Positions 4,359-55,343 of a stretch of DNA of 64,000 nucleotides are shown piece by piece. The notes below the pieces were generated by a model, which did not search any database, had not been told where the DNA came from, and worked only from the letters and a program-made list of their open reading frames with translations. The DNA comes from Streptomyces sp. 840.1 (GTDB lineage: Bacteria > Actinomycetota > Actinomycetes > Streptomycetales > Streptomycetaceae): contig NZ_RJUU01000003.1 of NCBI RefSeq assembly GCF_003751445.1, forward strand, positions 1,240,001 to 1,304,000. Direction: 5' to 3'. Every line of letters begins with the position of its first letter. The first letter of the stretch is position 1. The position numbers and the translations under genes were made by a program.

Positions 4359-4385
4359 GACAGGGCCGTGGACTCAGGTGTGACA
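4359..4385 (-). promoter_or_regulatory. ECF41-type promoter (one mismatch) for the 4309 esterase
   Basis: Read on the minus strand this is TGTCACA, 15 bases, CTGTC. The -10 element ends 50 bases from the GTG start of the esterase. The single mismatch to the window consensus is in the second base of CGGTC. Confidence 0.6.
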
Positions 4386-4411
4386 CTGTTGGAGCCGAGA
4401 CTCCGTAGCCC

Positions 4412-5212
4412 TCATTCAACGTCCAACGTTTCAGCCGTCGCGGCCGCGTCGGCGAGCTTCGGCAGCGGGGAGCCGTCGATGTACAGGTCGACGTGTTCGT
4501 TGTAGAACGCGGTCAGCCCGGCGATGCGATGGGCATGGATGGTCGGGAAGTCGTACATCCAGGCGATGTCCTCGTGCGCGGCCTTGTCGCTGTCGAACGA
4601 CCAGTAGCCGCTGGTGGTCCCCTTGTAGGGGCATCGCGTCACTGTGTCCGAGGACCGCAGGCGGCTCCAGTCGATGTTCGCGCGGTCGAGGTAGTAGCGG
4701 GTCGGCAGGCCGGTCTCGAACAGTTTCACGCAGTTGGTGGCCTCCGCCAGCACGACACCGTCCACCTCGACCCTGACGCTGCTGCTGGACCGCAGGGCGT
4801 CAACGCGCGAATAGGGACTGCGGGGATGGGCGAAGACCGGTTCGTCCTCCTCGAACCAGGTGTCCAGCGCCTCCCATTCGAAACGCACGGTGTCGCGCAA
4901 GGCTCCAGGAGCGCCTTCCCCCCAGACCCACGCCGCCCCCGGACGAGCCTCCGATCCCACCAGCAGAGAGTGCCGGTGGGCGGGGCCGGCGCCCAGTTGC
5001 TCCGTGTGCTTGTCGTCGTGCAGCACTCCGTCCACCAGGTCCTCGACCGGGATGCTGAACTGGGGGTACGCCTGCCATTCCCACACGTACAGGGCGCGGC
5101 GGGTGTCGAAGACGACACGGCCGCCGATCACTCCACGGATGCGGCGCGGTACGGGCTCCACGTGCCCGACCGGGACGATGAAGCTCGGGTGCAGGACGCT
5201 TTCGGTTGCCAT
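4412..5212 (-). CDS. DUF427-domain protein
   Basis: This 266-residue protein contains the DUF427 fold, apparently twice. The first copy, around residues 30-60, includes VVFDTRRALYVWE; the second, around residues 145-245, includes VLAEATNCVKLFETGLPTRYYL and CPYKGTTSGYWSF, the family's signature segments. DUF427 proteins are widespread in actinobacteria and fungi and have no established reaction that I can name. The gene stands alone, divergent from the MFS gene. I see no good ECF41-type promoter on its strand in the 318-base intergenic region. Confidence 0.8.
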   Translation of the reverse strand: MATESVLHPSFIVPVGHVEPVPRRIRGVIGGRVVFDTRRALYVWEWQAYPQFSIPVEDLVDGVLHDDKHTEQLGAGPAHRHSLLVGSEARPGAAWVWGEGAPGALRDTVRFEWEALDTWFEEDEPVFAHPRSPYSRVDALRSSSSVRVEVDGVVLAEATNCVKLFETGLPTRYYLDRANIDWSRLRSSDTVTRCPYKGTTSGYWSFDSDKAAHEDIAWMYDFPTIHAHRIAGLTAFYNEHVDLYIDGSPLPKLADAAATAETLDVE

Positions 5213-5416
5213 GTGATCACCTTGGATTCGCTGATGAGGCGCTCGCCGTAACGGTGTTCGTCACTGCGGGCGGCTTCGCTCCGGTCGGGCCGACGGCCCA
5301 CACCTACTCGTTTCGATGCTAGCGGCTGCGCCCGAGCGGTCCGCGAAAGGGCGTAGCGTGCACCACACATCGTTGTCACACCGTGTTGCTCGTCCTGGTG
5401 TCGCGGAGACAGTCGG

Positions 5417-5443
5417 TGTCACATGTCCGGGGCGGCCCGGGTC
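5417..5443 (+). promoter_or_regulatory. ECF41-type promoter (one mismatch) for the MFS gene
   Basis: TGTCACA, 15 bases, GGGTC, with the -10 end 87 bases upstream of the MFS ATG. Another TGTCACA at 5374-5380 lacks a matching -10 (TGGTG). Apart from these, the 5213-5530 intergenic region shows nothing recognisable. Confidence 0.6.
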
Positions 5444-5530
5444 AATGAACCGTAACTGTTCCACGTCAAGCCGGCCGCACCGCCGCATCGCTCCGGGTCG
5501 CCTGTCCCGGATGACCCCAGGACACCCCGC

Positions 5531-7072
5531 ATGGACGACTCCCCCGCTCCGCACGGCCCCGCCCCGCTACGCATCGACAGTGCCCGGGGGCGGTGGACCT
5601 TGCTGGTCACCGTTGTGGGGTCCGGCGTGGTGATGCTCGGCTCGACCGTCACGAACGTCGCGCTGCCGCACATCGGTGACGACTTCGACGCCGGCCTCGC
5701 CACGCTCCAGTGGACGGTCAACGCCTACATGCTGACGCTGGCGGGGCTGATCCTGCTCGGCGGAGCGCTGGGAGACCGTTTCGGGCGGCGCCGCGTCTTC
5801 GTCCTGGGCGTCGTGTGGTTCGCCGTGGCATCGCTGCTGTGCGGTCTGGCCCCGGGGGCCATCACTTTGATCGCTGCCCGAGCACTGCAGGGAGTCGGCG
5901 GTGCCCTGCTCACCCCCGGGTCGCTGGCGATCATCGAGGCTTCCTTCCACCCCGACGACCGGCCGCGCGCGATCGGCCTGTGGTCGGGGTTCGGTGCTGT
6001 CGGCGCGGCGCTCGGGCCACTTCTGGGCGGATGGCTGGTGGACGGCCCCGGCTGGCGCTGGACCTTTCTGCTGAGCGTCGTCCCGGCACTGCTGTGCGTC
6101 CCGATCGCGCTGCGCCATGTCCCGGAATCGGTGGGCTCGTCCGCGGAGGACGTGGATGGCACGAGCGCGGCGACGAGCCCAGCGATGCGACCGCGACGAC
6201 ACGGATTCGACGTGTCCGGCGCCGTCCTGGGCGCCCTGACACTCGCCCTGCTCACTTACGCACTGACCGAAGCGCGGAACAGCGGACCGGCGGCTCTCGC
6301 GGCGGCTGTGACCGGCCTCCTGGCAGGAGCCGCGTTCCTTCGCGTGGAGCGACGCGGCACCGCTCCGATGATGCCGTTGTCCATCTTCGAGTCCCGGCAG
6401 TTCACCGCCATCAACCTGATCACACTGTGTGTCTATGCGGGAACGGGCGGGTTCTTCTTCCTGACCGCTATTCAGCTGCAGCTCGTGGTCGGGTACTCGG
6501 CGTCGTCGGCGGGCGCGGCCATGTTGCCGACAACCGTGCTGATGCTGTTGTTCTCGTCCCGTTCCGGAATGCTCGCCCAGCGTCTGGGGGCGCGGATCCC
6601 GCTCACCGTCGGCCCGCTGGTGTGCGGGACGGGCATGCTGATGATGGTGCGCGTGGGTCCTGGCTCGTCCTACCTCGACGACGTTCTCCCCGCTCTGCTG
6701 GTCATGGGAACCGGCATGGTCGTCATGGTGGCTCCGCTGACCGTGACCTTGCTGTCCTCGGTGCATCCCTCGAACGCCGGGCTGGCCAGTGGCATCAACA
6801 ACGCCGCAGCCCGGGCGGCCGGTCTGCTGTCCGTGGCGGCGTTGCCGCTACTGATCGGGATGGATCCGGGAAGCTACCGGCCGGGCGTGGCCTTCGCTAC
6901 GTCCTTCAACCGCGCCATGCCGCTGTGCGCGGGCCTGCTGGCCATCGGCGGAGCCGTGGCCTTCGTGACCCTGCGGCAGGCCGCGGCGCCTCCTCGGCGC
7001 GGGCGGGCACACAGCTGGCTCATGGAGCCGCCGCTGACCTCCCGCTTCGTTGATGACGACGTCGCCGGATAG
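5531..7072 (+). CDS. MFS drug exporter, DHA2 (EmrB/QacA-like) type
   Basis: This 513-residue polytopic protein fits the 14-helix DHA2 drug:proton antiporter group. Motif C is present (GPLLGGWLVDGPGWRWTF near residue 160), as is the loop 2-3 motif GGALGDRFGRRRVF (around residue 76), and the family-typical NVALPHIGDDF lies in the first helix region. Such proteins export hydrophobic or cationic compounds with proton influx across the cytoplasmic membrane. Substrate cannot be told from sequence. The promoter-like site at 5417 suggests co-regulation with the stress genes of the window. The ribosome-binding site before this ATG is weak (CCAGGACACC). Confidence 0.88.
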   Translation: MDDSPAPHGPAPLRIDSARGRWTLLVTVVGSGVVMLGSTVTNVALPHIGDDFDAGLATLQWTVNAYMLTLAGLILLGGALGDRFGRRRVFVLGVVWFAVASLLCGLAPGAITLIAARALQGVGGALLTPGSLAIIEASFHPDDRPRAIGLWSGFGAVGAALGPLLGGWLVDGPGWRWTFLLSVVPALLCVPIALRHVPESVGSSAEDVDGTSAATSPAMRPRRHGFDVSGAVLGALTLALLTYALTEARNSGPAALAAAVTGLLAGAAFLRVERRGTAPMMPLSIFESRQFTAINLITLCVYAGTGGFFFLTAIQLQLVVGYSASSAGAAMLPTTVLMLLFSSRSGMLAQRLGARIPLTVGPLVCGTGMLMMVRVGPGSSYLDDVLPALLVMGTGMVVMVAPLTVTLLSSVHPSNAGLASGINNAAARAAGLLSVAALPLLIGMDPGSYRPGVAFATSFNRAMPLCAGLLAIGGAVAFVTLRQAAAPPRRGRAHSWLMEPPLTSRFVDDDVAG

Positions 7073-7094
7073 AAACCGTCCGGGATCGCCCACC

Positions 7095-7121
7095 TGTCAC
7101 ATCGGCGGACGCCCGTCGGTC
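7095..7121 (+). promoter_or_regulatory. ECF41-type promoter for the 7195 cupin gene
   Basis: Exact TGTCACA, 15 bases, CGGTC; the -10 end is 73 bases from the ATG at 7195. Confidence 0.75.
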
Positions 7122-7194: not shown

Positions 7195-7689
7195 ATGTCA
7201 TATCCCTACCCGGAGCAGAAGTACTGGGGCGAGGACGGTGAAGTCAGCGCCGTCTTCCGGCCCGCCACCACACCGCCGGCCATCGGTGCGACCGGTATCG
7301 GGAAGGACGCCACCCACTATCTGGCGACCACGGACACCACCCGGGGCGAGTTCGGGTTGTACCGGGTGGAGATGCGGCCCAGGGCGGGCGGACCCAAGAC
7401 GCACTACCACAAGCGGATCTCGGAGTCGTTCTACATCCTGGACGGCACCGTGCGGGTCTTCGACGGCGTGCAGTGGGTGGACGCGCGGAAGGGAGATTTC
7501 CTGCACGTCCCTCAAGGCGGGCTGCACGCCTTCCGCAACGACTCGGACGCACCGGCCGACATGCTGCTTCTCTTCACACCAGGTGCCCCACGCGAGGAGT
7601 ATTTCGAGCAGGTGTCGCAACTGGCGCACGCCTCCGAGGAGGAGCGCGCGGCGTTCTTCGACAAGCACGACTCGTACTTCGTGGAATAG
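7195..7689 (+). CDS. Cupin-domain protein
   Basis: This 164-residue single-domain cupin carries motif 1 (THYHKRISESFYILDGTVRV, residues about 70-90) with two metal-type His and a Glu, and motif 2 (PQGGLHAFRN) with the third His. Cupins of this layout usually bind one divalent metal and act as small oxygenases, isomerases or binding proteins; no substrate is predictable. A strong AGGAAGGAAT-like ribosome-binding site precedes the ATG. It is transcribed from an exact copy of the window's ECF41-type promoter. Two further cupin genes (36927 and the split gene at 39217) lie in the window. Confidence 0.82.
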   Translation: MSYPYPEQKYWGEDGEVSAVFRPATTPPAIGATGIGKDATHYLATTDTTRGEFGLYRVEMRPRAGGPKTHYHKRISESFYILDGTVRVFDGVQWVDARKGDFLHVPQGGLHAFRNDSDAPADMLLLFTPGAPREEYFEQVSQLAHASEEERAAFFDKHDSYFVE

Positions 7690-8162: not shown

Positions 8163-9263
8163 ATGACCTACGAGCCCTCTTCCGTGTTGGACGCCGCACC
8201 GTCGGACGGCGTCGATCCGGACGAGTTCGTGCGAGCGGCCATGCACTGGCACTTCGACCCGCGGACAGGCTCCCGCTACTGGCTCGAGCGGGCCGAAAGG
8301 CTGGCCTTCGATCCGATGCGGGACGTGAAGTCCGTGGCGGACCTGTCGCTCTTCCCCGACCTGACCGACGAACTACGGGACGTCCCGGTGACCGAGCTGA
8401 TCCCCCGGGGCTATGGAAACCGTGCCGCCCTCATCAATGTCTTCGACAGCGGCGGCACGACCGGGGCGCCCAAGCGAGTCGTCCAGCTCGACGACTGGAT
8501 GCGGCGCAGCACCGAGCAGATCGACCGTCGGCTCCGGGACCACGGCCTGCCCGTCGGCACCCACTGGCTGACTGTGGCGCCGACCGGGCCCCACCTGGTG
8601 GGGGACGTCCTGCAGCGAGCGGCGGGTGCCCTGGGGAGCCCAGGACTGAGCATCGACATGGACCCCCGCTGGGTCAGGAGACTGATCGCCGCGGGCCGCG
8701 GCGACGAGGCCGAGTCCTATACGGACCACCTCGTCGAGCAGTGCCGACGGATCCTGCTGACCCAGGACATCGGAGTACTTGCCGCGACCACCCCGCTGCT
8801 GGAGCGGTTCGCCGCCGAGGACGACCTCCTGGAACGGATCAACGGCTCCGTCGAGGCGATCATCTGGGGTGGCACGCACATGGATCCCGACACCCGCCAC
8901 CTGCTGGCCACGGACGTCTTTCCCGATGTGCCGCTCATCGGCATGTACGGCAACACCATGATGCTCACCGCGCTGATCGAACGTGTCGGTCTCAGTGCGA
9001 GCCGGCCCTGCGTGTTCGATCCCGTGTCGCCGAACGTGTTCCTGTCGGTGGTGGATCCCGGCACCGGTGAACGGGTCGAGGTGGGTGAGCGGGGCCAGGT
9101 GATCGTCAGCCATGTCAGCAAGTCCATGCTCATCCCCAACAACGCCGAACGTGACACGGCCGTACGCGTGCGGCCGGCCGACGGCCAGGCGGGCGACGCC
9201 GTGGCGGACGTGGCCCCGGTGGCCACGGTGAAGGACGAACGCGTGATCGAGGGCGTGTACTGA
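8163..9263 (+). CDS. Adenylate-forming enzyme, EhpF-like
   Basis: This 366-residue protein is a short ANL-superfamily (AMP-forming) ligase. The phosphate-binding motif DSGGTTGAPK lies near residue 98 and the GMYGNTMM segment occupies the A5 position. The size matches the compact ligases described for phenazine griseoluteate pathways (EhpF) rather than full-length acyl-CoA ligases; the usual C-terminal lid domain appears missing. It should activate a carboxylate as an acyl-adenylate for the reductase encoded next. AGAAAGGACC is its ribosome-binding site, and its TGA overlaps the next ATG (TGATG), so the two genes are translationally coupled. The substrate is unknown; no phenazine core genes are in view. 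Confidence 0.68.
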   Translation: MTYEPSSVLDAAPSDGVDPDEFVRAAMHWHFDPRTGSRYWLERAERLAFDPMRDVKSVADLSLFPDLTDELRDVPVTELIPRGYGNRAALINVFDSGGTTGAPKRVVQLDDWMRRSTEQIDRRLRDHGLPVGTHWLTVAPTGPHLVGDVLQRAAGALGSPGLSIDMDPRWVRRLIAAGRGDEAESYTDHLVEQCRRILLTQDIGVLAATTPLLERFAAEDDLLERINGSVEAIIWGGTHMDPDTRHLLATDVFPDVPLIGMYGNTMMLTALIERVGLSASRPCVFDPVSPNVFLSVVDPGTGERVEVGERGQVIVSHVSKSMLIPNNAERDTAVRVRPADGQAGDAVADVAPVATVKDERVIEGVY

Positions 9264-10654
9264 TGACGGCTGCCGACATCACGGACCCGGTCCACGTGGA
9301 CGCTCTCGGCCCCCGCGGCGCCTACCGGTCGCGGGTGCCGAGCACGGTGACGGATGTGTCCGGTGCCGAAGTGGCACGACTGAGCCTGGTACCACCGGTG
9401 TACGTGACCCGGGCTCTCGCGGCGCTGCGCAGAGCCGAGCCCGTGGCAGCGGCCGGCGCGGACGCGCTGTTGCGGGCGGCGGGCGAGGAGTTCGCGACCG
9501 GCACCATCGGTGGGCTGGGCGTACGCGAGTACGAACACCTTGTCAGTCGTACCTCGGGCATCCCGCTGACGGTGGTGCGCTCCACCACGCGCGGTACGGC
9601 ACGGTTCGTCGCGCAGGCCCAGTCGTCCGCCCGCCGAGGCAAGCCGAGCGGGGCGGTCCTCGACCGTCGGGATCCGGCACTGAAGGCCGGGCACGCCGTA
9701 TGGGCCCGTCGAGGCGACGTGTTCGCCGTCAACGCCTCCGGCAACCATCCCGGAGTCCACCGGCAGTGGCTGGAGGCACTGGCCCTGGGTTACCGCGTCG
9801 CCGTGCGTCCTTCCCGACGGGAGCCGTTCACGGCCCACCGGCTGATCGGGGCACTGCACCGGGCCGGTGTCCGCGAGGACCAGCTGGTGCTCCTCCCCAC
9901 GGACCATGCGACCGGCGACGCGCTGATACGCGGCGCGGACCGCGCGGTGGTCTACGGCGGCGACGATGTGGTCGCACGCCACGCCCACGATCCCCGCGTG
10001 CTGACCCAAGGTCCGGGCCGGACCAAGATCCTCGTCACCGCAGACACGGACTGGCGCCAACACCTCGACACGATCATCGGTTCCGTCGCCGATGAGGGGG
10101 GCACCGCGTGCGTCAACGCCACCGCCGTCCTCGTCGAGGGCGATCCCGCACCGCTCGCCGAAGCCGTCGCAGACCGGCTGTCCCAGCTGCCCGCCCTGCC
10201 GCTCCAGGACGCCCGTGCCGTGCTCCCGGTCTGCCCACTGGACCGGGCGCGCGCCCTCAGCTCCTACCTGAGGTCGGCGGCGGCAGGTACTCGTGCCTGG
10301 CTCGGTAGTGAGGGCGTCGTCGGTGACCTCGGTGACGGAAGCGCCGCCCTGCGTCCCGCCGTCCATCAGGTCGACAGCCCCCTTGCCGCCCAACTCCGGA
10401 CCGAACTCCCCTTCCCCTGCGTGTGGGTAGCGCCCTGGAGCCGCGCGGACGGGATCGCTCCTCTACGGGACACGCTCGTCCTTTCCGCTCTGACCAGCGA
10501 CGGCACGTTGCTCGACGAGTTGCTGGCGGAGCCCACGATCGCCAATGTGCACGTCGGTGACACCCCGACCTACTGGATGGCCCCGGGGGTGCCGCACGAC
10601 AGTTACCTGTCAGATTTCCTGATGCGCAGCAAGGCCATGATCGGCACCCTGTAG
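9263..10654 (+). CDS. Aldehyde dehydrogenase / acyl reductase-like protein
   Basis: This 463-residue protein has the aldehyde dehydrogenase superfamily layout. A cofactor-binding half contains NASGNHPG and a catalytic half contains DEGGTACVNATAV, where the Cys of GGTACVN sits at the thiol-nucleophile position (near residue 285). Coupling to the upstream adenylation gene suggests that the pair reduces an activated carboxylate to an aldehyde (LuxC/EhpG-like logic) instead of oxidising one. The start overlaps the upstream stop by one base. No other biosynthetic genes adjoin, so the product is unknown. A convergent hairpin follows the gene. Confidence 0.68.
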   Translation: MTAADITDPVHVDALGPRGAYRSRVPSTVTDVSGAEVARLSLVPPVYVTRALAALRRAEPVAAAGADALLRAAGEEFATGTIGGLGVREYEHLVSRTSGIPLTVVRSTTRGTARFVAQAQSSARRGKPSGAVLDRRDPALKAGHAVWARRGDVFAVNASGNHPGVHRQWLEALALGYRVAVRPSRREPFTAHRLIGALHRAGVREDQLVLLPTDHATGDALIRGADRAVVYGGDDVVARHAHDPRVLTQGPGRTKILVTADTDWRQHLDTIIGSVADEGGTACVNATAVLVEGDPAPLAEAVADRLSQLPALPLQDARAVLPVCPLDRARALSSYLRSAAAGTRAWLGSEGVVGDLGDGSAALRPAVHQVDSPLAAQLRTELPFPCVWVAPWSRADGIAPLRDTLVLSALTSDGTLLDELLAEPTIANVHVGDTPTYWMAPGVPHDSYLSDFLMRSKAMIGTL

Positions 10655-14588: not shown

Positions 14589-14615
14589 GACCGGATGCAG
14601 GCCGGACCTGTGACA
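14589..14615 (-). promoter_or_regulatory. ECF41-type promoter for the leader/DUF5134 unit
   Basis: Exact TGTCACA, 15 bases, CGGTC on the minus strand; the -10 end is 83 bases from the leader GTG and 130 from the DUF5134 ATG. Confidence 0.72.
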
Positions 14616-14649: not shown

Positions 14650-14676
14650 TGTCACAACAGCGCGCCATGTCCTGTC
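14650..14676 (+). promoter_or_regulatory. ECF41-type promoter (one mismatch), possibly for the pyruvate dehydrogenase operon
   Basis: TGTCACA, 15 bases, CTGTC. The -10 end is 249 bases upstream of the aceE ATG. The stretch between holds no gene I recognise, so this would be a long leader; the assignment is tentative. Confidence 0.45.
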
Positions 14677-21496: not shown

Positions 21497-21523
21497 GACC
21501 GACAAGTCGGTGACGATGTGACA
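21497..21523 (-). promoter_or_regulatory. ECF41-type promoter facing the cytochrome b gene
   Basis: Exact TGTCACA, 15 bases, CGGTC on the minus strand. It is divergent from the flavoprotein promoter, whose -35 starts 44 bases away. Confidence 0.65.
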
Positions 21524-21566: not shown

Positions 21567-21593
21567 TGTCACAGATTCCGGCACAGCCCGGTC
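21567..21593 (+). promoter_or_regulatory. ECF41-type promoter for the flavoprotein gene
   Basis: Exact TGTCACA, 15 bases, CGGTC; the -10 end is 33 bases from the GTG start at 21627. Confidence 0.75.
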
Positions 21594-23361: not shown

Positions 23362-23388
23362 TGTCACACGAAGTGCCACTGTCCGGTC
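23362..23388 (+). promoter_or_regulatory. ECF41-type promoter for the 23476 SDR
   Basis: Exact TGTCACA, 15 bases, CGGTC, beginning 4 bases after the flavoprotein stop; the -10 end is 87 bases from the ATG at 23476. Confidence 0.75.
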
Positions 23389-30075: not shown

Positions 30076-30102
30076 TGTCACAGACGGGGCCGCTGTCCGG
30101 TC
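30076..30102 (+). promoter_or_regulatory. ECF41-type promoter for LAL 2
   Basis: Exact TGTCACA, 15 bases, CGGTC. It lies inside the longest possible LAL 2 frame (from 29982), which shows that the true start must be downstream. Confidence 0.72.
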
Positions 30103-32947: not shown

Positions 32948-32974
32948 TGTCACAGGTGCGGACGCCGCTCGGTC
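32948..32974 (+). promoter_or_regulatory. ECF41-type promoter for the 33046 OsmC gene
   Basis: Exact TGTCACA, 15 bases, CGGTC, beginning 8 bases after the LAL 2 stop; the -10 end is 71 bases from the OsmC ATG. Confidence 0.75.
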
Positions 32975-37502: not shown

Positions 37503-37529
37503 GACCGGGTGGCCGCCGGATCTGTGACA
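37503..37529 (-). promoter_or_regulatory. ECF41-type promoter for the 37394 cupin
   Basis: Exact TGTCACA, 15 bases, CGGTC on the minus strand; 109 bases from the GTG start. It is divergent from the 37600 promoter. Confidence 0.75.
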
Positions 37530-37599: not shown

Positions 37600-37626
37600 T
37601 GTCACAGAAGACGTGTCCGCCCGGTC
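37600..37626 (+). promoter_or_regulatory. ECF41-type promoter kept upstream of the SDR relic
   Basis: Exact TGTCACA, 15 bases, CGGTC; the -10 end is 54 bases from the GTG of the internally deleted SDR gene at 37680. Confidence 0.75.
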
Positions 37627-38974: not shown

Positions 38975-39001
38975 GACCGAGCTGTCGGCTCGGGTGTGAC
39001 A
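38975..39001 (-). promoter_or_regulatory. ECF41-type promoter for the whiB-like gene
   Basis: Exact TGTCACA, 15 bases, CGGTC on the minus strand; 52 bases from the ATG at 38922. Confidence 0.75.
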
Positions 39002-42301: not shown

Positions 42302-42328
42302 CGTCACAACTCTTCTCGCTGTCCGGTC
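42302..42328 (+). promoter_or_regulatory. ECF41-type promoter (CGTCACA variant) for the flavohaemoglobin gene
   Basis: CGTCACA, 15 bases, CGGTC; the -10 end is 83 bases from the hmp ATG. The Ohr gene has the same -35 variant. Confidence 0.65.
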
Positions 42329-44518: not shown

Positions 44519-44545
44519 GACCGAACGGGAGTGCTGCCTGTGACA
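44519..44545 (-). promoter_or_regulatory. ECF41-type promoter for the SDR next to the sigma gene
   Basis: Exact TGTCACA, 15 bases, CGGTC on the minus strand; 55 bases from the SDR GTG at 44463. Confidence 0.78.
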
Positions 44546-44658: not shown

Positions 44659-45555
44659 ATGCAAGCCGGTGCCCCTCGCGACACCCTCGCTCAAGCGACG
44701 AAGGACTTCATTTCCGCGCGTCCGCAGCTCTTCGGCATCGCGTACCGCATCCTGGGCAGCACGGCGGAGGCCGAGGACGTGGTGCAGGAGACCTGGTTGC
44801 GGTGGCAGAACACCGACCGGACGGCCGTGCACGAATCGGCCGCCTTCCTCACCACGGTGACCACCCGGCTGGCGATCAATCTGGCCCAGTCGGCGCGCGT
44901 GCGCCGCGAGACCTATGTCGGCCCGTGGCTCCCGGAGCCGGTCGGCACCGGGCAGGACCCGTATCTGGGCGCGGAGCGGGCCGAGGCGCTCGAACTGGCG
45001 GTGCTGCTGCTCCTGGAGAAGCTGAACCCGGTGGAGCGCGCCGCCTATGTGCTGCGGCATGCCTTCGACTATCCCTACGGGCGGATCGCCGAGATGCTGG
45101 AGATCACCGAGGCCAACACCCGTCAACTGGTGAGCAGGGCGCGCAAGCACCTGGCCGCCGAGCGCCGGGAACGGGTCAGCCCGGCGGTCCATCGGCGTAT
45201 GCTCAAGGTGTTCCTCTCCGCGGCACGGACGGGCGACCTGTCGGTGCTGGAGGACGTGCTCACCGCGGATGTCGTCAGTTACTCGGACGGGGGCGGAATG
45301 CGCGGCGCGTCCAGGATCCCGGTCGTCGGACGGGACCGTGTGAGCCGGTACCTCGTGGCCTTCGCGCCGCGCTTCTGGCCGTCGGCGGACACGCGTTGGG
45401 TTGAGGCCAACGGCCGCCCGGCGGTACTCGTGTCGTCCGGCGGGAAGGCGGTGGCCCTGCTGTCCGTCGGTGTGTCCGCCGAGGGCATCGACCGGATTCT
45501 GTGGGTGCTGAACCCCGACAAGCTGTCCGCCTATGTCGCGTCACTCGTCAACTGA
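44659..45555 (+). CDS. ECF41-type RNA polymerase sigma factor (intact)
   Basis: This 298-residue ECF sigma factor has sigma2 (about residues 15-75: RPQLFGIAYRILGSTAEAEDVVQ onward), the linker motif WLPEP, sigma4 (LNPVERAAYVLRHAFDYPYGRIAEML, then RQLVSRARKHL) and a C-terminal SnoaL-like domain with YSDGGG and the closing NPDKL. WLPEP, DGGG and NPDKL are the hallmarks of ECF41, whose fused C-terminal domain is reported to control activity in place of an anti-sigma factor. AGAAGGG precedes the ATG at 44659; an ATG eleven codons earlier is possible. I see no forward ECF41-type promoter ahead of it. It is the best candidate reader of the promoter word found throughout the window. Confidence 0.92.
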   Translation: MQAGAPRDTLAQATKDFISARPQLFGIAYRILGSTAEAEDVVQETWLRWQNTDRTAVHESAAFLTTVTTRLAINLAQSARVRRETYVGPWLPEPVGTGQDPYLGAERAEALELAVLLLLEKLNPVERAAYVLRHAFDYPYGRIAEMLEITEANTRQLVSRARKHLAAERRERVSPAVHRRMLKVFLSAARTGDLSVLEDVLTADVVSYSDGGGMRGASRIPVVGRDRVSRYLVAFAPRFWPSADTRWVEANGRPAVLVSSGGKAVALLSVGVSAEGIDRILWVLNPDKLSAYVASLVN

Positions 45556-45594: not shown

Positions 45595-45621
45595 CGTCAC
45601 AGGCAAGATGACTCGCCGGTC
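45595..45621 (+). promoter_or_regulatory. ECF41-type promoter (CGTCACA variant) for the Ohr gene
   Basis: CGTCACA, 15 bases, CGGTC; the -10 end is 60 bases from the GTG at 45682. Confidence 0.68.
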
Positions 45622-46437: not shown

Positions 46438-47217
46438 TCACGCGGGAGTCCGGTTCCAGGCGCGTAGCTTGTCGGGGTTGAGCATCACCCAGACCTGGAC
46501 GACCCGGGACCCGGCGATGTCGAGCGTGATGACGGCGACGACCCGGTCGTCGTAGCGGGCTACGAGGCCGGTGCGTCCGTTGACGGAATGGGTGTCCAAG
46601 GTCGTGCGGGGCTGACGGGTGAGCAGCGTCAGAAGACTGTGGGCGACCTCGGCGCCGCCGTTGACCGGCCGAGTCAGTGTGCGGATCCTGCCTCCGCCGT
46701 CGTAGAAGACGCTCGCGTCGGGGGCCAGCAGCGAGGCCAGCCGGCCGGCGTCCTCTTCGGCGCATGCCCGTCGTACCATGCCGACTATTCGGTCCTGCCG
46801 GTGCGGTGGTGCCGGCTCCGCCCGGCGCGCCCGCAGGCTCAGGCGGGCCCGGTCCAGTGGGTCGGCGTACCCCGGTTCGGACCGCCCGATGGTGCCCGCG
46901 CCCGTGCGCGGCGCTGTCCCGGCCTCTCCCGCCGGCTCCGGACTGCTCGGTACACCAACGTGCGGTGCCGACCCGGCCCCGTCCGGCCCCGCGAACCGCC
47001 CCAGGCAGATCCCGCCGACGGTCCGCGTCAGCCAGGCCCGAGGTACCGTCACTTCGGCCCGTTCCGGATCGGAGAGCCCGTACCACCGCCGGTACGCGTC
47101 GTTGATCGCTCCCTCGGCGGCGACCCGGCTGCCGAGCATCCAGCTTGCGACCTCCAGCAGATGCCGCCGCTCATCGAGCAGCTCCGTGATCGGCACGTCG
47201 TCACCGACGTGGTCCAT
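46438..47217 (-). CDS. ECF41-derived sigma-like protein lacking a recognisable sigma4
   Basis: This 259-residue protein has a sigma2-like N-terminus (LLEVASWMLGSRVAAEGAIND onward, residues about 12-60) and a SnoaL-like C-terminus with FYDGGGRIRTLTRPV and VMLNPDKL, both as in ECF41. Between them neither the WLPEP linker nor the sigma4 helix-turn-helix is visible; that space holds a Pro/Gly-rich stretch and RARLSLRARRAEPAP. I infer loss or extreme divergence of the -35-binding domain, so it may act as a modulator rather than an initiating sigma factor. ATG at 47217. It is driven by an exact ECF41-type promoter. Confidence 0.7.
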   Translation of the reverse strand: MDHVGDDVPITELLDERRHLLEVASWMLGSRVAAEGAINDAYRRWYGLSDPERAEVTVPRAWLTRTVGGICLGRFAGPDGAGSAPHVGVPSSPEPAGEAGTAPRTGAGTIGRSEPGYADPLDRARLSLRARRAEPAPPHRQDRIVGMVRRACAEEDAGRLASLLAPDASVFYDGGGRIRTLTRPVNGGAEVAHSLLTLLTRQPRTTLDTHSVNGRTGLVARYDDRVVAVITLDIAGSRVVQVWVMLNPDKLRAWNRTPA

Positions 47218-47303: not shown

Positions 47304-47330
47304 GACCGGGCGGCAAAAGACCTTGTGACA
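47304..47330 (-). promoter_or_regulatory. ECF41-type promoter for the sigma-like gene
   Basis: Exact TGTCACA, 15 bases, CGGTC on the minus strand; 86 bases from the ATG at 47217. Confidence 0.75.
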
Positions 47331-47380: not shown

Positions 47381-48730
47381 TTACCGGGCGACCACGTCCT
47401 CGGTCCGTTCGCCGTGGCGGGGGGCGCCCTTGGAGACGAAGGCGTCCCGCGGACGCTGGACCGACGCGAGCGAGACGATGTCGCGGCCGAAGAGGGCGGC
47501 ACTGACCCACACGGCGAACACCCGGGCCTTGCGCTCCCAGGTCGGTATGGCCAGCACGTGGTAGCCGCGGTGCATCAGCCAGGCCGGGAGCCCCTTGATG
47601 ACCAGGCGCCGGTACTGGAAGATGCCGTGCCCAAGCCCCAGGGTGGCCACCACACCCAGGCTGTGGTGCACGTAGTCCTTGGTGGGCCGGCCGCGCAGGT
47701 CCGCCAGGATGTTTCTCGCCAGCAACTTCCCCTGCCGTACCGCGTGCTGGGCATTGGGGACCGTGTGAGCCCCCGGCTGTCCGGATGCCAGATCGGGTAC
47801 GACGGCGTCGTCGCCCGCGGCCCACACGCCGGCCACTGCCTCGCTGTCGGTGCCGACCCGGAGGTCGGCGCGGACCACGAGCAGTCCTCGTTCGTCGACC
47901 GGGAGGTCGGTGTGGTTGCTCACGATCGGGTTGGACGCGTTGCCCGCGGCCCACACGAGCAGGTCCGACTCGTACTCCGTACCGTCGGACAGCACGATGT
48001 GACCGCCCGCCGCGGAGACGAGCTGAGTGTTCAGGTGGACCCTCGCACCCCGCTTCTCCAGGAAGCGCACCACCCACTCGCCGGGCCGTTCCCCGACCTC
48101 GGGAAGGATGCGCCCCCGCGCTTCGACCAGGTGGAACGACAGCTCGTCCGCGTGGATCTCCGGGTAGCTCCTGAGCAGTGCGGCCGCCAGGGCCAGCAGC
48201 TCCCCGAAACCCTCCACGCCGGCGAAGCCGCCGCCGACAAAGGTGACCGCCAGCAGTTTGCTGCGTTCGGAGCCGGGCGGCAGTAGCGCGGCGCGGTCGA
48301 ACGAGGTCAGCAGCCGGTCCCGTACGGCCACCGCCTCCTCGACGTGCTTCAGGCCGTACGCCTGTTCGCCGACCCCGGGAATGGGGAAGGTGCGGGTGAC
48401 CGCGCCCGCCGTCACCACCAGGACGTCGTAGGAGAGGTCGAAGTCCGCTCCGGTCTCCGGCCGTACCGTCACCTTGCGTTCGCCGTCGCGGACCTCCGTG
48501 ACGGCGCCCGCGATCAGCCGGGTCCCGCGCAGGTGTCTACGCAGGGACACCGACGCGTGCCGGGCCTCGACCGACCCGGCCAGCACCTCGGGCAGGAACG
48601 GCTGGTACGTCATGTAGGGGCGGGGGTCGACCACGGTGACGCGTGCCTCACCCCGGCGCATTTTCTTCTGAAGGCCCCACGCGGTGTAGAAACCCGCGTA
48701 ACCACCACCCACGATCAGGATTTCGCGCAC
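47381..48730 (-). CDS. Type II NADH dehydrogenase (NDH-2)
   Basis: This 449-residue flavoprotein fits NDH-2. Its FAD motif ILIVGGGYAGFYTA is at the N-terminus, the NAD motif VTFVGGGFAGVEGFGEL lies near residue 165, VWAAGDDAVVP is the second FAD contact near residue 305, and a C-terminal amphipathic segment is expected to sit on the membrane. It transfers electrons from NADH to menaquinone without pumping protons. The GTG start at 48730 is only 34 bases from an exact ECF41-type promoter. Together with the cytochrome b and flavoprotein genes it supports a respiratory branch under the same sigma factor. Confidence 0.88.
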   Translation of the reverse strand: MREILIVGGGYAGFYTAWGLQKKMRRGEARVTVVDPRPYMTYQPFLPEVLAGSVEARHASVSLRRHLRGTRLIAGAVTEVRDGERKVTVRPETGADFDLSYDVLVVTAGAVTRTFPIPGVGEQAYGLKHVEEAVAVRDRLLTSFDRAALLPPGSERSKLLAVTFVGGGFAGVEGFGELLALAAALLRSYPEIHADELSFHLVEARGRILPEVGERPGEWVVRFLEKRGARVHLNTQLVSAAGGHIVLSDGTEYESDLLVWAAGNASNPIVSNHTDLPVDERGLLVVRADLRVGTDSEAVAGVWAAGDDAVVPDLASGQPGAHTVPNAQHAVRQGKLLARNILADLRGRPTKDYVHHSLGVVATLGLGHGIFQYRRLVIKGLPAWLMHRGYHVLAIPTWERKARVFAVWVSAALFGRDIVSLASVQRPRDAFVSKGAPRHGERTEDVVAR

Positions 48731-48764: not shown

Positions 48765-48791
48765 GACCGGGAGGAGCCGTTCGCTGTGACA
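48765..48791 (-). promoter_or_regulatory. ECF41-type promoter for NDH-2
   Basis: Exact TGTCACA, 15 bases, CGGTC on the minus strand; 34 bases from the GTG. Confidence 0.78.
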
Positions 48792-50309: not shown

Positions 50310-50336
50310 TGTCACAGATCGACGGGGAACCCGGTC
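50310..50336 (+). promoter_or_regulatory. ECF41-type promoter for the AhpD-like gene
   Basis: Exact TGTCACA, 15 bases, CGGTC; the -10 end is 41 bases from the ATG at 50378. Confidence 0.8.
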
Positions 50337-50377: not shown

Positions 50378-50848
50378 ATGGACGCGCGTATCGACTACTT
50401 CGGCAACGCCCTCGCGGGCAAAGTCATGAAGCACCTGAACTCGGCCGGCGCGGCGGTGCACGCCGCCGTCCCGGCCGCCACACAGGAGTTGGTGAAGATC
50501 CGGGCCAGCCAGATCAACGGCTGTGGCTTCTGCACCGACATGCACACCAAGGACGCCGTCGCGGCGGGTGAGGACCAGCAGCGCCTGAACCTGGTGGCCG
50601 CCTGGCACGAGGCCACGGTCTTCACCGGCGCCGAGCGCGCGGCACTGGCCCTGACCGAGCAGGGCACGCGCCTCGCGGACGGCGCGGGCGGTGTCTCGGA
50701 CGAGGTCTGGGCGGATGCCTCGCGGTACTACGACGAGGACCAGCTCGCCGCGCTCATCTCGCTGATCGCGATCATCAACGCGTACAACCGCATCAACGTC
50801 ATCAACCGGCAGCCCGCCGGTGGCTACAAGCCCGGCATGTTCGGCTGA
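50378..50848 (+). CDS. Carboxymuconolactone decarboxylase/AhpD-like protein
   Basis: This 156-residue protein is of the CMD/AhpD family. The redox motif GCGFCTDMH (CxxC plus His, near residue 48) sits in the conserved helix KIRASQINGCGFC, followed by the family-typical ERAALALTEQGTRL segment. AhpD-like members are alkylhydroperoxidases. CMD-family genes are among the classical neighbours and targets of ECF41 sigma factors, and this one has an exact promoter copy. AAAAGG lies upstream of the ATG. A 16-bp hairpin follows. Confidence 0.88.
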   Translation: MDARIDYFGNALAGKVMKHLNSAGAAVHAAVPAATQELVKIRASQINGCGFCTDMHTKDAVAAGEDQQRLNLVAAWHEATVFTGAERAALALTEQGTRLADGAGGVSDEVWADASRYYDEDQLAALISLIAIINAYNRINVINRQPAGGYKPGMFG

Positions 50849-50922: not shown

Positions 50923-50980
50923 TTCACCATCGTCGACAACAGCCGGCGGGGTCACGGCCCGCCTGACGGAGGAGATCACC

Positions 50981-51973: not shown

Positions 51974-52852
51974 TCAGGCCCGTGGGGGCCGGTTCCAGCC
52001 AAGGTGGAGGACGGTCACGTCGTCCGCCAGACCGCCGAAGGGCTCGGTGAGCAGTGCCGCACCGCGCACCAAGGCGTCGACGAAGTTCTGGTAGGGCAGG
52101 TGCGCGTACCGGGTCGCCAGGCGCAGCAGCCCCTGCTCGCCGAGCCGCCCGGAGACAGTCCGGCCCTCGTAGAGGCCGTCGGTGAACAGCACCACACTGT
52201 CCCGGTACCCGAGAGCGAAGTCGCTCTGCGACCAGCCCCCATGACCGGGGAAGAGCCCCAGCGCGATGCCCCCGGCCGGCTCTACCCACCCGATCTCCCC
52301 TTTGCGCCGGTGCAGCAGACCCGGGTGGCCGGCGCTGACCATCCGCACGGACCGCCCATGGGCCGGGAACTCCAGACAGACGAGAGTGGCATACGTCTCC
52401 TCGTCCGGCCGCTCGGCCACCAGCACCTTTTCCAGCAGGTGCAGCCGTTCCAGCTGGGTCTGTCCGCACAGGACCGCGGCCCGCCAGGACAGGCGCAAGT
52501 GGACGGCGAGGGCGGCCTCTGCCGCGCCGTGGCCGGAGACGTCCCCCATGATGACGTGCACGGTGGAGTCCTCGGTCTGCGTCACGTCGTAGAAGTCGCC
52601 GCTCAGCAGGGTATGCGGGCGGCAGGGTGCGTAGTGGAAGGCGGTGGCGAAGCCGTCGTGCCGCGGACCGAGGCCGGGCAGCAGGCCGCGTTCGAGCAGA
52701 GCACTGTCCCACGCTCTCTCCTGCTGCGCCAACAGCAGCATCGCGAGGTCGCGGTAGAGCGGGGACGCGGCTCGTGGACGGGCGGCCGGTTCGGTGCCGC
52801 CTCGGCGCGGCTCGCCGTCCGGCACGTCCGACGGCCGGAAAGGACTGATCAT
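51974..52852 (-). CDS. PP2C/SpoIIE-type serine phosphatase
   Basis: This 292-residue protein has an N-terminal helical part and a PP2C (SpoIIE/RsbU) phosphatase domain. LSGDFYDV and IMGDVSGHG carry the metal-binding Asp residues, FTDGLYEGR is present, and DDVTVLHLGW ends the fold. Such enzymes dephosphorylate anti-anti-sigma proteins in partner-switching systems. There is no PAS/GAF sensor in front, so it is either constitutive or controlled through its N-terminal helix. I placed the start at the ATG at 52852, which has a weak ribosome-binding site. No partner anti-sigma genes are in the window. Confidence 0.85.
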   Translation of the reverse strand: MISPFRPSDVPDGEPRRGGTEPAARPRAASPLYRDLAMLLLAQQERAWDSALLERGLLPGLGPRHDGFATAFHYAPCRPHTLLSGDFYDVTQTEDSTVHVIMGDVSGHGAAEAALAVHLRLSWRAAVLCGQTQLERLHLLEKVLVAERPDEETYATLVCLEFPAHGRSVRMVSAGHPGLLHRRKGEIGWVEPAGGIALGLFPGHGGWSQSDFALGYRDSVVLFTDGLYEGRTVSGRLGEQGLLRLATRYAHLPYQNFVDALVRGAALLTEPFGGLADDVTVLHLGWNRPPRA

Positions 52853-52961
52853 GTGCGGGCTTTCGTCGGGCGGATGGTGGTGCGGGGCGCGGTGGGCGCA
52901 CACGTACAAGACCGGCGCGGTACTGACGGCCGTCCCGGTCTCGTACGTGCGTGCGTGCGTG

Positions 52962-53804
52962 TCAGCGCACCGAGCGTGCGGCGTCCTCGATGACCTCGGT
53001 GACCTTCCCGGGGTGCGAGACGCTCACGGCGTGCGAGGAGCGGACCTCACTGGTGTGCGCGCCCGCCCGCACGGCCATGAACTCCTGAGCGGCGGGTGGG
53101 ATGTTGAGGTCCCGGGTGGCGATCAGATCCCAGGAGGGGATGGTCTTCCAGGCCGGCTCGGCCGCGCCCTCGGCCAAGGCCGCCTCGGTGACCGGTCTCT
53201 GCGTGACGGCCATGAGGTCCGTCTTGTCACGGGGCACGTCCGCGGCGAACTGGTGGCGGAACGTGTCGTCGCGTATGTACAGGTCGGTGCCGCGCGAGCC
53301 GTCGGGGTTGGTGACCGGCACGGGCCGCAGCGCCTCGCCGAGCGTGGAGCCGGGGAACCTGCCCGACAGGCCGACCGCGCTCTCGCCCCGCTCGGGGAGG
53401 AAGGCAGCGAGGTAGACCAGCGCCTTGACGTCGCTGTCGCCGGTGGCGGCGTTACTGATGACGGAGCCGCCGTAGGAGTGGCCGGCCAGTACGACGGGCC
53501 CGTCGATGCCGGCCAGTACGTCCTTCAGGTAGGCGCTGTCACCACTGAGGGAGCGCAGCGGGTTGGCGACGGCGACCACCGGATAGCCGTCGTGCCGCAG
53601 CCTGTCGATCACACCGTTCCAGCTCGTGGCATCGGCGAACGCACCGTGAACGAGCACGATGGTGGGTTTGGTCCGCTGCGCAGGGGCGCCCTTGTCGGCG
53701 GCGGCCGGGACGACGGTGCCGGCCAGCAACGCCGCTACGGTACCGGCACCGGTCAGGACGGTGAGCGCCGCACGGGATCGGCGGGTGAGGATGGTTCGGT
53801 TCAT
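52962..53804 (-). CDS. Secreted alpha/beta hydrolase
   Basis: This 280-residue hydrolase starts with a signal peptide (twin-Arg-containing MNRTILTRRSRAALTVLT, hydrophobic core to about residue 35, cleavage near AAADKG). The mature part is a close paralogue of 2575-3294: VHGAFADATSW, GHSYGGS (nucleophile Ser), SSHAVSVSHPGKV (His). It probably acts outside the cell on small esters or related compounds. An exact ECF41-type promoter lies 36 bases upstream. The cytoplasmic paralogue lacks that promoter. Confidence 0.85.
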   Translation of the reverse strand: MNRTILTRRSRAALTVLTGAGTVAALLAGTVVPAAADKGAPAQRTKPTIVLVHGAFADATSWNGVIDRLRHDGYPVVAVANPLRSLSGDSAYLKDVLAGIDGPVVLAGHSYGGSVISNAATGDSDVKALVYLAAFLPERGESAVGLSGRFPGSTLGEALRPVPVTNPDGSRGTDLYIRDDTFRHQFAADVPRDKTDLMAVTQRPVTEAALAEGAAEPAWKTIPSWDLIATRDLNIPPAAQEFMAVRAGAHTSEVRSSHAVSVSHPGKVTEVIEDAARSVR

Positions 53805-53840
53805 GTCGGATGCCCTTTCTGGCCTGTTTCTCGCCTGTAA

Positions 53841-53867
53841 GACCGGCGGTACCTCCGGGGTGTGACA
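53841..53867 (-). promoter_or_regulatory. ECF41-type promoter for the secreted hydrolase
   Basis: Exact TGTCACA, 15 bases, CGGTC on the minus strand; back-to-back with the 53876 promoter, the two -35 elements only 8 bases apart. Confidence 0.78.
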
Positions 53868-53875
53868 ACACGCCC

Positions 53876-53902
53876 TGTCACAGGACCGGTCGGCGCTCTG
53901 TC
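53876..53902 (+). promoter_or_regulatory. ECF41-type promoter (one mismatch) for the methyltransferase
   Basis: TGTCACA, 15 bases, CTGTC. The -10 element ends just 9 bases before the ATG at 53912, so a transcript from it would be leaderless. Confidence 0.58.
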
Positions 53903-53911
53903 TTGCTGAGC

Positions 53912-54712
53912 ATGCACCTCGTCACCGTGATCGCACCGAACGTCCGTCCCCGGCCGGACCCCTACACCGTCACAGCGGAGTTCTACGACATCCTCCAGGC
54001 CGACGAGGACGAGACGCTGGTTCGACGGCTCTACGGCCCCGCGGTCGCGCGGGCCCGGCAGGGTGTGCTGGACATCGGAGCCGGGACAGGACGGGTGACG
54101 CTGATGAGCCTGGCGGAATCCGGGGCCGATGTGCACGCGGTCGAGCCCTCGCGTGCCATGCGCACCGTGCTGACGGCCCGCCTCGCCGCACTGCCCGCCG
54201 CGCGCGACCGGGCGACGCTGTATCCGCACCCGCTGGACGAGGCTGCCCTGTACGAGGTGGCGGACGTCGCCGTCTGCCACAACACGGTCGCCTGCCTCTC
54301 GCCTGCCGCGCGGCGCGCGCTCTGGCCGTCGATCGGCGCCGCCCTCTCCCCCGGCGGCTCCCTCCTCCTCCACCTGCCGCCCGCCCGGCTTCCCGCACGT
54401 GATGTCGTGCGGATCTTTCCCGAGCGGCGGATCGGCCGGCACGAGTACGGCGGGCGCATGGTGATGTCAGCCGTCGGGGGCCGCATCCGAGCCCGTGCCC
54501 ACTACTGGGTCCGGGCGCAGGGCTGCATGCTGCAGGAACACACCGAGACCTTCTGGATGTGGCCCGCCTCGCGCTCCGCGCTCGTCCGGGATCTGGAACG
54601 CCACGGGTTCACCCCGTCGTCCGGACCCACCGACGCGGCTGTCCTCGCGATGACACTGCGGAGTGGCCTGACGGCCGGTGTCGGTGTCGGTGTCACGACC
54701 AGGGCCGGCTGA
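53912..54712 (+). CDS. SAM-dependent class I methyltransferase
   Basis: This 266-residue protein has the Rossmann-type methyltransferase motif VLDIGAGTGRVTL (near residue 55), the acidic loop AVEPSRAM after beta 2 and VAVCHNTVACLSP at motif III/IV. The C-terminal half is variable, as expected for small-molecule methyltransferases. Substrate unknown. No ribosome-binding site precedes the ATG, in keeping with a leaderless transcript from the adjacent promoter. A longer upstream frame exists but would overlap that promoter. Confidence 0.78.
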   Translation: MHLVTVIAPNVRPRPDPYTVTAEFYDILQADEDETLVRRLYGPAVARARQGVLDIGAGTGRVTLMSLAESGADVHAVEPSRAMRTVLTARLAALPAARDRATLYPHPLDEAALYEVADVAVCHNTVACLSPAARRALWPSIGAALSPGGSLLLHLPPARLPARDVVRIFPERRIGRHEYGGRMVMSAVGGRIRARAHYWVRAQGCMLQEHTETFWMWPASRSALVRDLERHGFTPSSGPTDAAVLAMTLRSGLTAGVGVGVTTRAG

Positions 54713-54717
54713 CGGTC
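54691..54717 (+). promoter_or_regulatory. ECF41-type promoter (TGTCACG variant) kept ahead of a pseudogene
   Basis: TGTCACG, 15 bases, CGGTC, overlapping the end of the methyltransferase gene; the -10 end is 79 bases from the decayed reductase start. Confidence 0.55.
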
Positions 54718-54796
54718 TGGTGCGTATCGGCGTCACACGGTTCAACCGGGCTGACCGGCCAGGACGGAGAACATCATCTCGCGTGCGGAAACGTTC

Positions 54797-55305
54797 GTGA
54801 TCGTCGGGGGCGGTCTCGCCGCCGGCCGGACCGCGGAGGAAGTTCGCCGCACCGCGCAAGGAGCACGGGGCCGATCTGCGCCCCCTCGCCCGGATCGAGC
54901 GCCTCACCGGAACGTCAACGCCTGGCACCCTCGGCTCGGCCGGCAGCTGCGCGTCGGGCACTGGGCCAACGCGCTGCACCAGCCGCGGACCGTCGCCCCG
55001 GGCATGCTCGGCCGGAAGGAGGCGTACGAGCGGCTGGCGTACTTCTGCACCGATCAGTACGACCTCGGGATGGAGTACCCCGGTCACACGGAACGGGCGG
55101 CTACGACCGTGTCGTCTTCCGCGGCTCGCTCGACGAGCGGCGGTTCATCGCCTTCTGCATGTCCGGGAACCGCGTCCTGGCGGGAATGAGCGTCCATACG
55201 TGGGACGTCGTCGATGCGGTCCGCGCCCTCGTCGAGTCGGGGGCCGGGACGGACGACTCAGCCCTGCGCGGTCCCGGCGTCCCTCTGGTGAGTCTTGTGG
55301 TCTGA
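54797..55305 (+). pseudogene. Decayed ferredoxin reductase (FAD/NAD-dependent)
   Basis: The start GTG at 54797 opens VIVGGGLAAGRTAEEVRR, a typical FAD-binding N-terminus of ferredoxin reductases. After about 30 residues the frame jumps to the C-terminal part of the same family (WANALHQPRTVAPGMLG, AYFCTDQYDLGMEYPGH); about 250 residues are missing. Near 55095 the frame shifts, and the rest (GGYDRVVFRGSLDERRFIAF, then VHTWDVVDAVRALVESG) continues in another frame to the TGA at 55305. Both lesions make it non-functional. Confidence 0.78.
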
Positions 55306-55316
55306 AGCCGGAACGC

Positions 55317-55343
55317 TGTCACAGTCCCTCCGGCTGCCCGGTC
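55317..55343 (+). promoter_or_regulatory. ECF41-type promoter for the coiled-coil/winged-helix operon
   Basis: Exact TGTCACA, 15 bases, CGGTC; the -10 end is 69 bases from the ATG at 55413. Confidence 0.77.

Follow-up and report, generated by a model that had tools for sequence, protein, structure and literature searches.

Extracytoplasmic function (ECF) sigma factors of the ECF41 type, such as Ecf41Bli, Ecf41Rsp and SigJ, combine a core of sigma regions 2 and 4 with a linker carrying the motif WLPEP and a SnoaL extension carrying the motifs DGGG and NPDK. The type is widespread (13 of the 45 S. coelicolor ECF factors) and, according to PMC3426412 (Wecke et al.), is associated with a TGTCACA-16±1-CGTC promoter, with carboxymuconolactone decarboxylase (CMD), oxidoreductase and epimerase genes as targets or neighbors and, for the two factors studied, with one target gene or operon each. 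The same paper reports that complete removal of the extension abolishes activity and that Ecf41Bli cut at 204 and Ecf41Rsp cut at 206 are ~20- and 120-fold more active than the full-length proteins, these hyperactive forms ending 37 residues past dead versions of 167 and 169 residues. PMC7730460 summarizes published work according to which ECF41 factors are kept compact through a contact between NPDKL, in the SnoaL domain, and the linker sequence YVGPWLPEP. Larger ECF41 roles have been reported: PMC8999054 cites work from 2020 that places Azospirillum motility under the control of an ECF41 factor. Here, we analyze a 64-kb stretch of the Streptomyces sp. 840.1 genome (C3:1240001-1304000, hereafter the window) in which the word TGTCACA-N15-CGGTC, a candidate ECF41 promoter, recurs ahead of redox and respiratory genes. 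Three proteins of the window are central to the analysis:

44659..45555, plus strand: sigma A, an intact ECF41 sigma factor of 298 amino acids (aa) with WLPEP at 90, DGGG at 210 and NPDK at 285
59448..60119, plus strand: sigma B, an ECF41 paralog that ends ~40 residues past region 4, keeps WLPEP and has lost DGGG and NPDK
46438..47217, minus strand: the partner, a decayed sigma-like part joined to a SnoaL/NTF2-like domain with DGGGR and NPDKL and no WLPEP

The locus resembles the described ECF41 systems in protein architecture, in the TGTCACA −35 box and in its CMD, oxidoreductase and epimerase genes as targets or neighbors. It departs from them in two respects. About two dozen transcription units are predicted here, whereas each of the two studied factors has a single target gene or operon, in agreement with the sequence-only reading of this DNA, which called one- or two-gene regulons usual for ECF41; and the −10 element is C[G/T]GTC at spacing 15 rather than CGTC at 16±1. 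For the partner, the closest parallel is ECF56 SigG1-RsfG of S. tsukubaensis, a SnoaL-type ECF factor with a co-transcribed anti-sigma partner, the role that we propose here; according to PMC7730460, RsfG has no conserved Pfam domain, whereas the present partner is related to the sigma factor's own SnoaL domain. In PhyR-NepR-EcfG (PMC8103513), the tuning of a sigma factor falls to a protein whose sigma-like part has decayed, and similar tuning is proposed for the partner; however, PhyR mimics sigma to remove an anti-sigma factor, while the partner bears control motifs of the sigma factor itself. SigO-RsoA, also treated in PMC8103513, likewise splits sigma function over two proteins, but the division there falls between two sigma regions and here between core and regulatory domain. 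Within the abstracts and sections covered of the open-licence PMC literature, nothing was seen on a separate SnoaL partner, a natural ECF41 truncation or a clustered ECF41 regulon.

We propose, with a probability of roughly 0.8, that the words are promoters of one ECF41 clade and that the stretch forms a local redox and respiration regulon of about two dozen transcription units. Counting over both strands, our pattern search of the window recovered the 16 perfect and eight one-mismatch words of the sequence-only reading at identical coordinates and strands; dinucleotide shuffles gave 0.56 words with at most one mismatch (largest value 2), compared to the 24 found. In the whole genome (8,839,408 bases, four contigs), there are 18 perfect words and none of the pattern read backwards. 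Seventeen of the 18 lie within 63.6 kb (C3:1231763-1295343, window −8237 to 55343), so that the cluster begins outside the window with one perfect copy ~8 kb ahead of its start; the single word away from the cluster is at C1:3268364. None of the 17 clustered words falls inside a gene, in a stretch of which 82.6% is coding. Coding fraction and gene starts come from our own simple GC-frame caller, with approximate start positions; with these, clustered perfect words stand 34-130 bases from the chosen gene start, except for the QcrB gene with a leader of 364 bases. The close gene starts seen in the sequence-only reading and the genomic concentration for which it proposed a check were borne out, and equal density elsewhere or inside coding regions, which would have spoken against it, was not seen. 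A word common throughout the genome and merely sampled in the window is ruled out by the 17/18 clustering. Genome-wide, words with at most one mismatch number 53 versus 15 for the backwards control, and isolated one-mismatch copies outside the cluster are, on these counts, mostly at chance level. The words of the window and their predicted target genes, named by Pfam and NCBIfam scans, are as follows:

4359..4385, minus strand: CTGTC variant; target, alpha/beta hydrolase 3359-4309
5417..5443, plus strand: one-mismatch word; target, major facilitator superfamily transporter 5531-7072
7095..7121, plus strand: perfect word; target, cupin 7195-7689
14589..14615, minus strand: perfect word; target, DUF5134 protein 13820-14458
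14650..14676, plus strand: CTGTC variant; target, pyruvate dehydrogenase E1 14926-17616, followed by the E2 gene 17720-19249
21497..21523, minus strand: perfect word; target, second QcrB cytochrome b 19516-21132, with the long leader
21567..21593, plus strand: perfect word; target, SdhA/FrdA-like flavoprotein 21660-23357
23362..23388, plus strand: perfect word; target, NmrA/NAD(P)-binding protein 23476-24222
30076..30102, plus strand: perfect word; target, LAL-type LuxR regulator 30195-32939
32948..32974, plus strand: perfect word; target, OsmC protein 33046-33453
37503..37529, minus strand: perfect word; target, cupin 36927-37394
37600..37626, plus strand: perfect word ahead of an epimerase remnant 37680-37835 and YceI protein 37974-38573
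38975..39001, minus strand: perfect word; target, WhiB-like regulator 38656-38922
42302..42328, plus strand: one-mismatch word; target, flavohaemoglobin-type protein 42412-43620
44519..44545, minus strand: perfect word; target, short-chain dehydrogenase/reductase (SDR) 43696-44463, divergent from sigma A
44591, minus strand: one-mismatch word, a second copy near the 44519 word with the same SDR target
45595..45621, plus strand: one-mismatch word; target, OsmC protein 45682-46182
47304..47330, minus strand: perfect word; target, partner gene 46438-47217
48765..48791, minus strand: perfect word; target, type-2-NADH-dehydrogenase-like flavoprotein 47381-48730
50310..50336, plus strand: perfect word; target, CMD family protein 50378-50848
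53841..53867, minus strand: perfect word; target, alpha/beta hydrolase 52962-53804, with a SpoIIE phosphatase gene 51974-52903 next on the same strand
53876..53902, plus strand: CTGTC variant; target, methyltransferase 53912-54712
54691..54717, plus strand: one-mismatch word ahead of a broken ferredoxin-reductase-like gene at about 54784-55305
55317..55343, plus strand: perfect word; target, small protein of no named family 55413-55691

The link to a sigma factor clade was studied in 80 loci of 20 kb or less fetched with sigma A, comprising 61 at ≥53% identity (the clade) and 19 remoter ECF41 loci at 43-48%. The perfect word occurred in 32 of the 61 clade loci and in none of the 19 remoter ones. 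Spacing was strict: in clade loci, all 75 copies of CGGTC downstream of TGTCACA stood at N15, with N12-14 and N16-20 empty, and CTGTC followed TGTCACA 21 times at N15 and once at N14, while the remoter loci had CGGTC never at N15 and once at N20 but CGTC five times at N16 and three times at N17. Given the enrichment of CTGTC at spacing 15 in related loci, the three one-mismatch sites of the window with CTGTC in place of CGGTC (4359, 14650 and 53876) are probably real variants of the word. The −35 sequence TGTCACA is identical to the published ECF41 box, GTC stands in the same register and the −10 element, C[G/T]GTC, is one base off, a resemblance also noted in the sequence-only reading. As GTC keeps its register while the spacing counts differ between clade and remoter loci, the predicted −10 element of the clade is a one-base dialect of the published promoter. 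In a survey of 61 genomes, our own included, 88 words occur in the 16 that have a clade sigma factor (≥55% identity) and 24 in the 45 that lack one; all but one of the 16 contain a word. That the word is instead the site of another regulator and no ECF41 promoter is very improbable, since it matches the published −35 box and spacing register and accompanies the sigma clade. An origin of the word by chance or codon bias is ruled out by the shuffles, the genome count, the intergenic placement and the spacing counts.

Comparison with other Streptomyces, a check proposed in the sequence-only reading, located the word in rearranged islands, mostly 25-250 bases ahead of homologs of window targets and with differing gene orders. 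Examples are S. flaveolus contig 45 (G020:C45), G011, G027, G034, S. spiralis (L060), L062-L065, L070 and others; some words in these islands face genes without a window homolog or no called gene. In the loci covered by this count, homologs were taken at ≥45% identity and ≥60% cover and scored for a C[G/T]GTC word −100 to 420 bases upstream. On this basis, a word preceded 28 of 52 NmrA-type homologs (23476) elsewhere, 10 of 15 SdhA/FrdA-like flavoprotein homologs, 7 of 14 CMD homologs, 6 of 8 QcrB homologs, 6 of 12 partner homologs and 4 of 7 methyltransferase homologs. Counts for the remaining families were 3/3 (33046) and 3/8 (45682) for OsmC, 2/4 (7195) and 3/7 (36927) for cupins, 2/4 for WhiB-like regulators, 3/13 for NADH-dehydrogenase-like proteins, 1/3 each for pyruvate dehydrogenase E1 and the SDR, and 1/10 (52962) and 2/5 (3359) for hydrolases. 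The predicted core of the regulon thus recurs across genomes, and some window members may be local. A functionless relic of the lineage is an unlikely account of the word, as the islands are rearranged yet word and target are kept. In the genome itself, a family search placed three aceE and two QcrB copies over the cut-off, with the window copies scoring lowest; judged from family names, the targets would be spare copies of enzymes of respiration and redox metabolism.

Several observations weigh against a regulon of this extent and against naming its reader. Many genes of the stretch have no word; homologs elsewhere of the DUF5134 (0/2), LAL (0/2) and YceI (0/6) proteins lack one upstream; the perfect word is absent from the 20 kb of 29 of the 61 clade loci; and it is also absent from G001, a genome with a clade sigma factor that is 79% complete. 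In addition, the word accompanies the clade as a whole, which leaves 44659 and the truncated 59448 indistinguishable as its reader. The claim of the sequence-only reading that most of the region is one local regulon is supported by the word clusters, which track the sigma clade and recurring targets, with reservations for the many genes without a word and the targets unmatched elsewhere. Overall, we regard the predicted clustered regulon as well supported by comparison.

Other features of the window and the related islands were also recorded. Five LAL-type LuxR regulators (AAA_16 and GerE) are encoded in the window (27118-29931, 30195-32939, 33461-36232, 56322-59063 and 60205-62958), of which only 30195 stands behind a word. 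An IS481-type transposase gene (40792-41784) lies between the two word-bearing genes that look broken (37680-37835 and about 54784-55305), and on account of these three features a loss of targets from the island may be under way in this strain. No word stands directly upstream of an AMP-binding and aldehyde-dehydrogenase-like gene pair (8163-10654), which we take to be LuxE/LuxC-like; the first gene of that pair is word-preceded in L060 (5981-7081) and L064 (6769-7869). The second aceE copy of the genome (G000:C1:4438088-4440721) contains one in-frame TGA that was read through in the family search. Five islands share a word-preceded protein of 119-137 aa near sigma A, with a mutual identity of 69-92% and no homolog among the called genes of the window:

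L060 11667-12080; L063 11537-11923; L064 11523-11909; L065 11563-11922; S. flaveolus contig (L041) 591-977

Sigma A bears every ECF41 protein feature that we looked for, as the sequence-only reading of an intact factor at 44659 implied. Besides the three motifs, it contains sigma regions 2 and 4 by Pfam, scores over the cut-offs for TIGR02957 and PRK09636/SigJ and matches the SigJ structure 5xe7 at 1e-44; its nearest relatives share 73-83% identity. By predicted promoters, it would have more than one target gene or operon, a single target being a trait of the two studied ECF41 factors that is not strictly defining. Sigma B lacks the complete C-terminal extension and is nested among clade ECF41 sigma factors in the tree, identifying it by sequence as a truncated ECF41 derivative. 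Its end lies close to the cut points of the engineered hyperactive ECF41 forms, a comparison made by distance from region 4 only. Relatives of sigma B with a similar end point are encoded in S. flaveolus, S. spiralis, Actinacidiphila (L094), G034, G135, G165 and G316. The ratio of nonsynonymous to synonymous substitution rates (dN/dS), estimated with seven of ten truncated sigma factors and 12 partner sequences, was 0.15-0.23 for the sigma B core against six relatives and 0.09-0.23 over all 21 pairs of the seven truncated cores, the window copy included, which points to purifying selection on these cores. A sequencing or frameshift accident is ruled out for sigma B because truncated relatives turn up repeatedly and their cores are under constraint.

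Sigma A and sigma B fall into separate, well-supported sets of the tree (99/99 and 100/99), with cut and full-length forms intermixed in the sigma B set. Five truncation changes are most parsimonious, of which only two are forced by well-supported branches; a single origin of truncation inside the sigma B set is possible, and one truncated row, L122 (Asanoa), falls outside that set. A further short ECF41-like sigma factor on S. flaveolus contig 45 (L042, 17782-18516) shares 49% identity with sigma B and has no WLPEP linker.

The window partner matched no Pfam family at 0.001. It retains a weak sigma-2-like part, with region 2.3-2.4 and the linker diverged and region 4 eroded in this copy; judged from the sequence of the window copy, it is not a sigma factor with working regions 2 and 4, while some of its relatives still match sigma Pfam domains. 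Matches of at least 250 bits (a threshold of our own choice) to the S. spiralis partner relative were found in 31 of 295 Streptomyces genomes, and a word in its C[G/T]GTC form stands upstream of the partner gene in 26 of the 30 best loci. At least five perfect words were present in 25 of 199 Streptomyces genomes, and 21 of these 25 encode a full-length partner at that threshold versus 2 of the 174 with fewer words. Two of the four misses are explained by region-4-less partners, in the window genome and in G156, where the partner (L173) stands behind a word. Word, partner and truncated sigma gene follow each other in this order on one strand in S. flaveolus, S. spiralis, G135, G165 and G316, an arrangement that looks like an autoregulated sigma/anti-sigma operon; in other loci, the neighboring sigma gene is convergent to the partner gene.

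Each of the 40 partners of >240 aa in our own loci carries DGGG[KR] as well as NPDKL, and WLPEP is missing from all of them. Among the 120 database relatives listed, DGGG was present in 120, NPDK in 117 and WLPEP in none; candidates were picked by shared five-residue words, favoring motif bearers, so that the DGGG and NPDK counts are upper estimates, whereas the absence of WLPEP was not favored by this choice. One of the database searches made in this way returned 763 matches, among which ordinary ECF41 sigma factors are expected. We also compared conservation by section between 40 of the 120 listed partner relatives and 40 clade sigma factors. The SnoaL part is the least conserved section in the sigma factors (0.51) and as conserved as any in the partners (0.71), where the first part of region 4 reaches 0.70. 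The linker scores 0.90 in sigma factors versus 0.22 in partners, the former figure being inflated by a filter for P[ED]P at the linker position where it is expected, which 96 of 112 sigma-core matches passed (of the 16 left out, ten have PWLPEP elsewhere and six do not). An AlphaFold2 model of the S. spiralis relative contained sigma 2- and 4-like helices and an alpha/beta domain, with a mean predicted local distance difference test score of 79.7 and a predicted template modeling score of 0.53, at which the domain arrangement is not reliable. Among solved structures, its best matches were SigJ and SigG1, followed by NTF2-like proteins that matched the C-terminal part only.

These data bear on an alternative scenario, in which sigma A, an ordinary ECF41 factor with self-inhibition, would control the regulon alone while sigma B and the partner are paralogs being lost. 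Sigma A does retain all ECF41 motifs, and the window contains decayed genes and a partner with an eroded region 4. Such loss is, however, at odds with the purifying selection on sigma B cores (dN/dS 0.09-0.23), with the partner motifs kept in 40 of 40 and with the recurrence of sigma B-type factors and partners together with the word in other genomes, and we consider the scenario unlikely. Alternatively, the partner might be a decoy whose sigma-2-like part binds RNA polymerase, cannot read promoters and competes with sigma A or B. Mean identity between partners and sigma factors is best in region 2.1-2.2 (0.39) and worst in region 2.3-2.4 (0.15), the part that reads the −10 element. Within partners, region 2.1-2.2 (0.69) is nearly as conserved as the SnoaL part, for which reason the decoy deserves more weight than it otherwise would. 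It still seems quite improbable to us, as SnoaL-only proteins of 79-177 aa without a sigma part stand beside the clade sigma factors of Acrocarpospora, Saccharothrix, Microbacterium, Asanoa and others.

We favor instead a division of ECF41 control between two proteins. The linker motif is present in sigma B, from which the domain is gone, while the partner keeps the domain motifs and lacks the linker motif; at the level of these motifs, cut sigma and partner carry complementary halves of ECF41 control. The DGGG motif is visible in the alignments. A motif table of 95 rows was divided into groups defined after the alignment was seen, with rows that are related to each other; contig-end row L115 was dropped and the duplicate loci L141, L150, L161 and L162 were left out. 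Among 24 clade sigma factors with a partner within 400 bases, none has both DGGG and NPDK, four have DGGG and three NPDK. The corresponding numbers are 7, 29 and 9 for 48 clade sigma factors without a partner within 1,500 bases and 10, 15 and 11 for 17 remote ECF41 factors. Six rows with a partner 400-1,500 bases away, sigma A among them, were set aside (both motifs in three, DGGG in four, NPDK in three).

In the mechanism that we propose, RNA polymerase with sigma A, sigma B or both would start transcription at the words. It would thereby drive alternative central redox enzymes, namely pyruvate dehydrogenase E1/E2, QcrB, the SdhA-like flavoprotein, NADH dehydrogenase 2 and flavohaemoglobin, together with CMD, OsmC, NmrA-type and cupin proteins. 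The clade's ECF41 control domain would have moved into the separate partner, whose SnoaL domain, with its DGGG and NPDK motifs, would dock in trans on the WLPEP linker of the domain-less sigma B and restrain it for as long as no small molecule or redox signal is bound. As the partner gene sits behind a word, this would create a self-limiting loop. We give about even odds to the regulatory domain acting in trans on clade sigma factors, and we hold the same balanced view of the evolutionary claim that ECF41 control was split, with a stand-alone SnoaL protein acting on sigma factors that have WLPEP but a lost or degraded domain.

The sign of the partner's effect could also be the reverse. NTF2-like domains often pair, and the partner might supply a ligand-sensing half that enables sigma B or A to bind promoters. 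The loss of ECF41 activity on complete removal of the extension, as described in PMC3426412, would fit such an activator in that part of the domain is needed. Truncated sigma factors, however, keep ~40 residues past region 4, near the +37 hyperactive forms that need no help, and activation is thus a doubtful alternative.

Split control itself faces a number of contrary observations. NPDK is intact in only nine of the 48 clade sigma factors without a neighboring partner, and its frequent loss there weakens the simplest form of the idea; sigma A keeps both motifs with a partner 883 bases away, so that a self-controlled sigma factor coexists with the partner. The linker is altered in two truncated sigma factors (PRSPEP in L052 and WLPDP in L168). 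Sigma B has no word upstream, the best match being 8 of 12 bases, and in the window it lies 12 kb from the partner. Within the partner, conservation is about equal in the sigma-like and SnoaL parts, and no partner was recognized in G129 (eight words) or G177 (16 words).

If this lineage has cut ECF41 into a sigma core and a regulatory domain, both halves could be expressed, mixed and titrated separately, giving a natural, selected counterpart of the hyperactive ECF41 truncations made in the laboratory. The island suggests that a large clustered regulon, with a −10 dialect peculiar to it, can belong to a single ECF41 clade, which could help in designing orthogonal promoters and in working out what an island with duplicates of central respiratory enzymes does. 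The partner, if it acts as proposed, would represent a new class of soluble anti-sigma factor, derived from a sigma factor's own fused domain and governing a 60-kb redox island.

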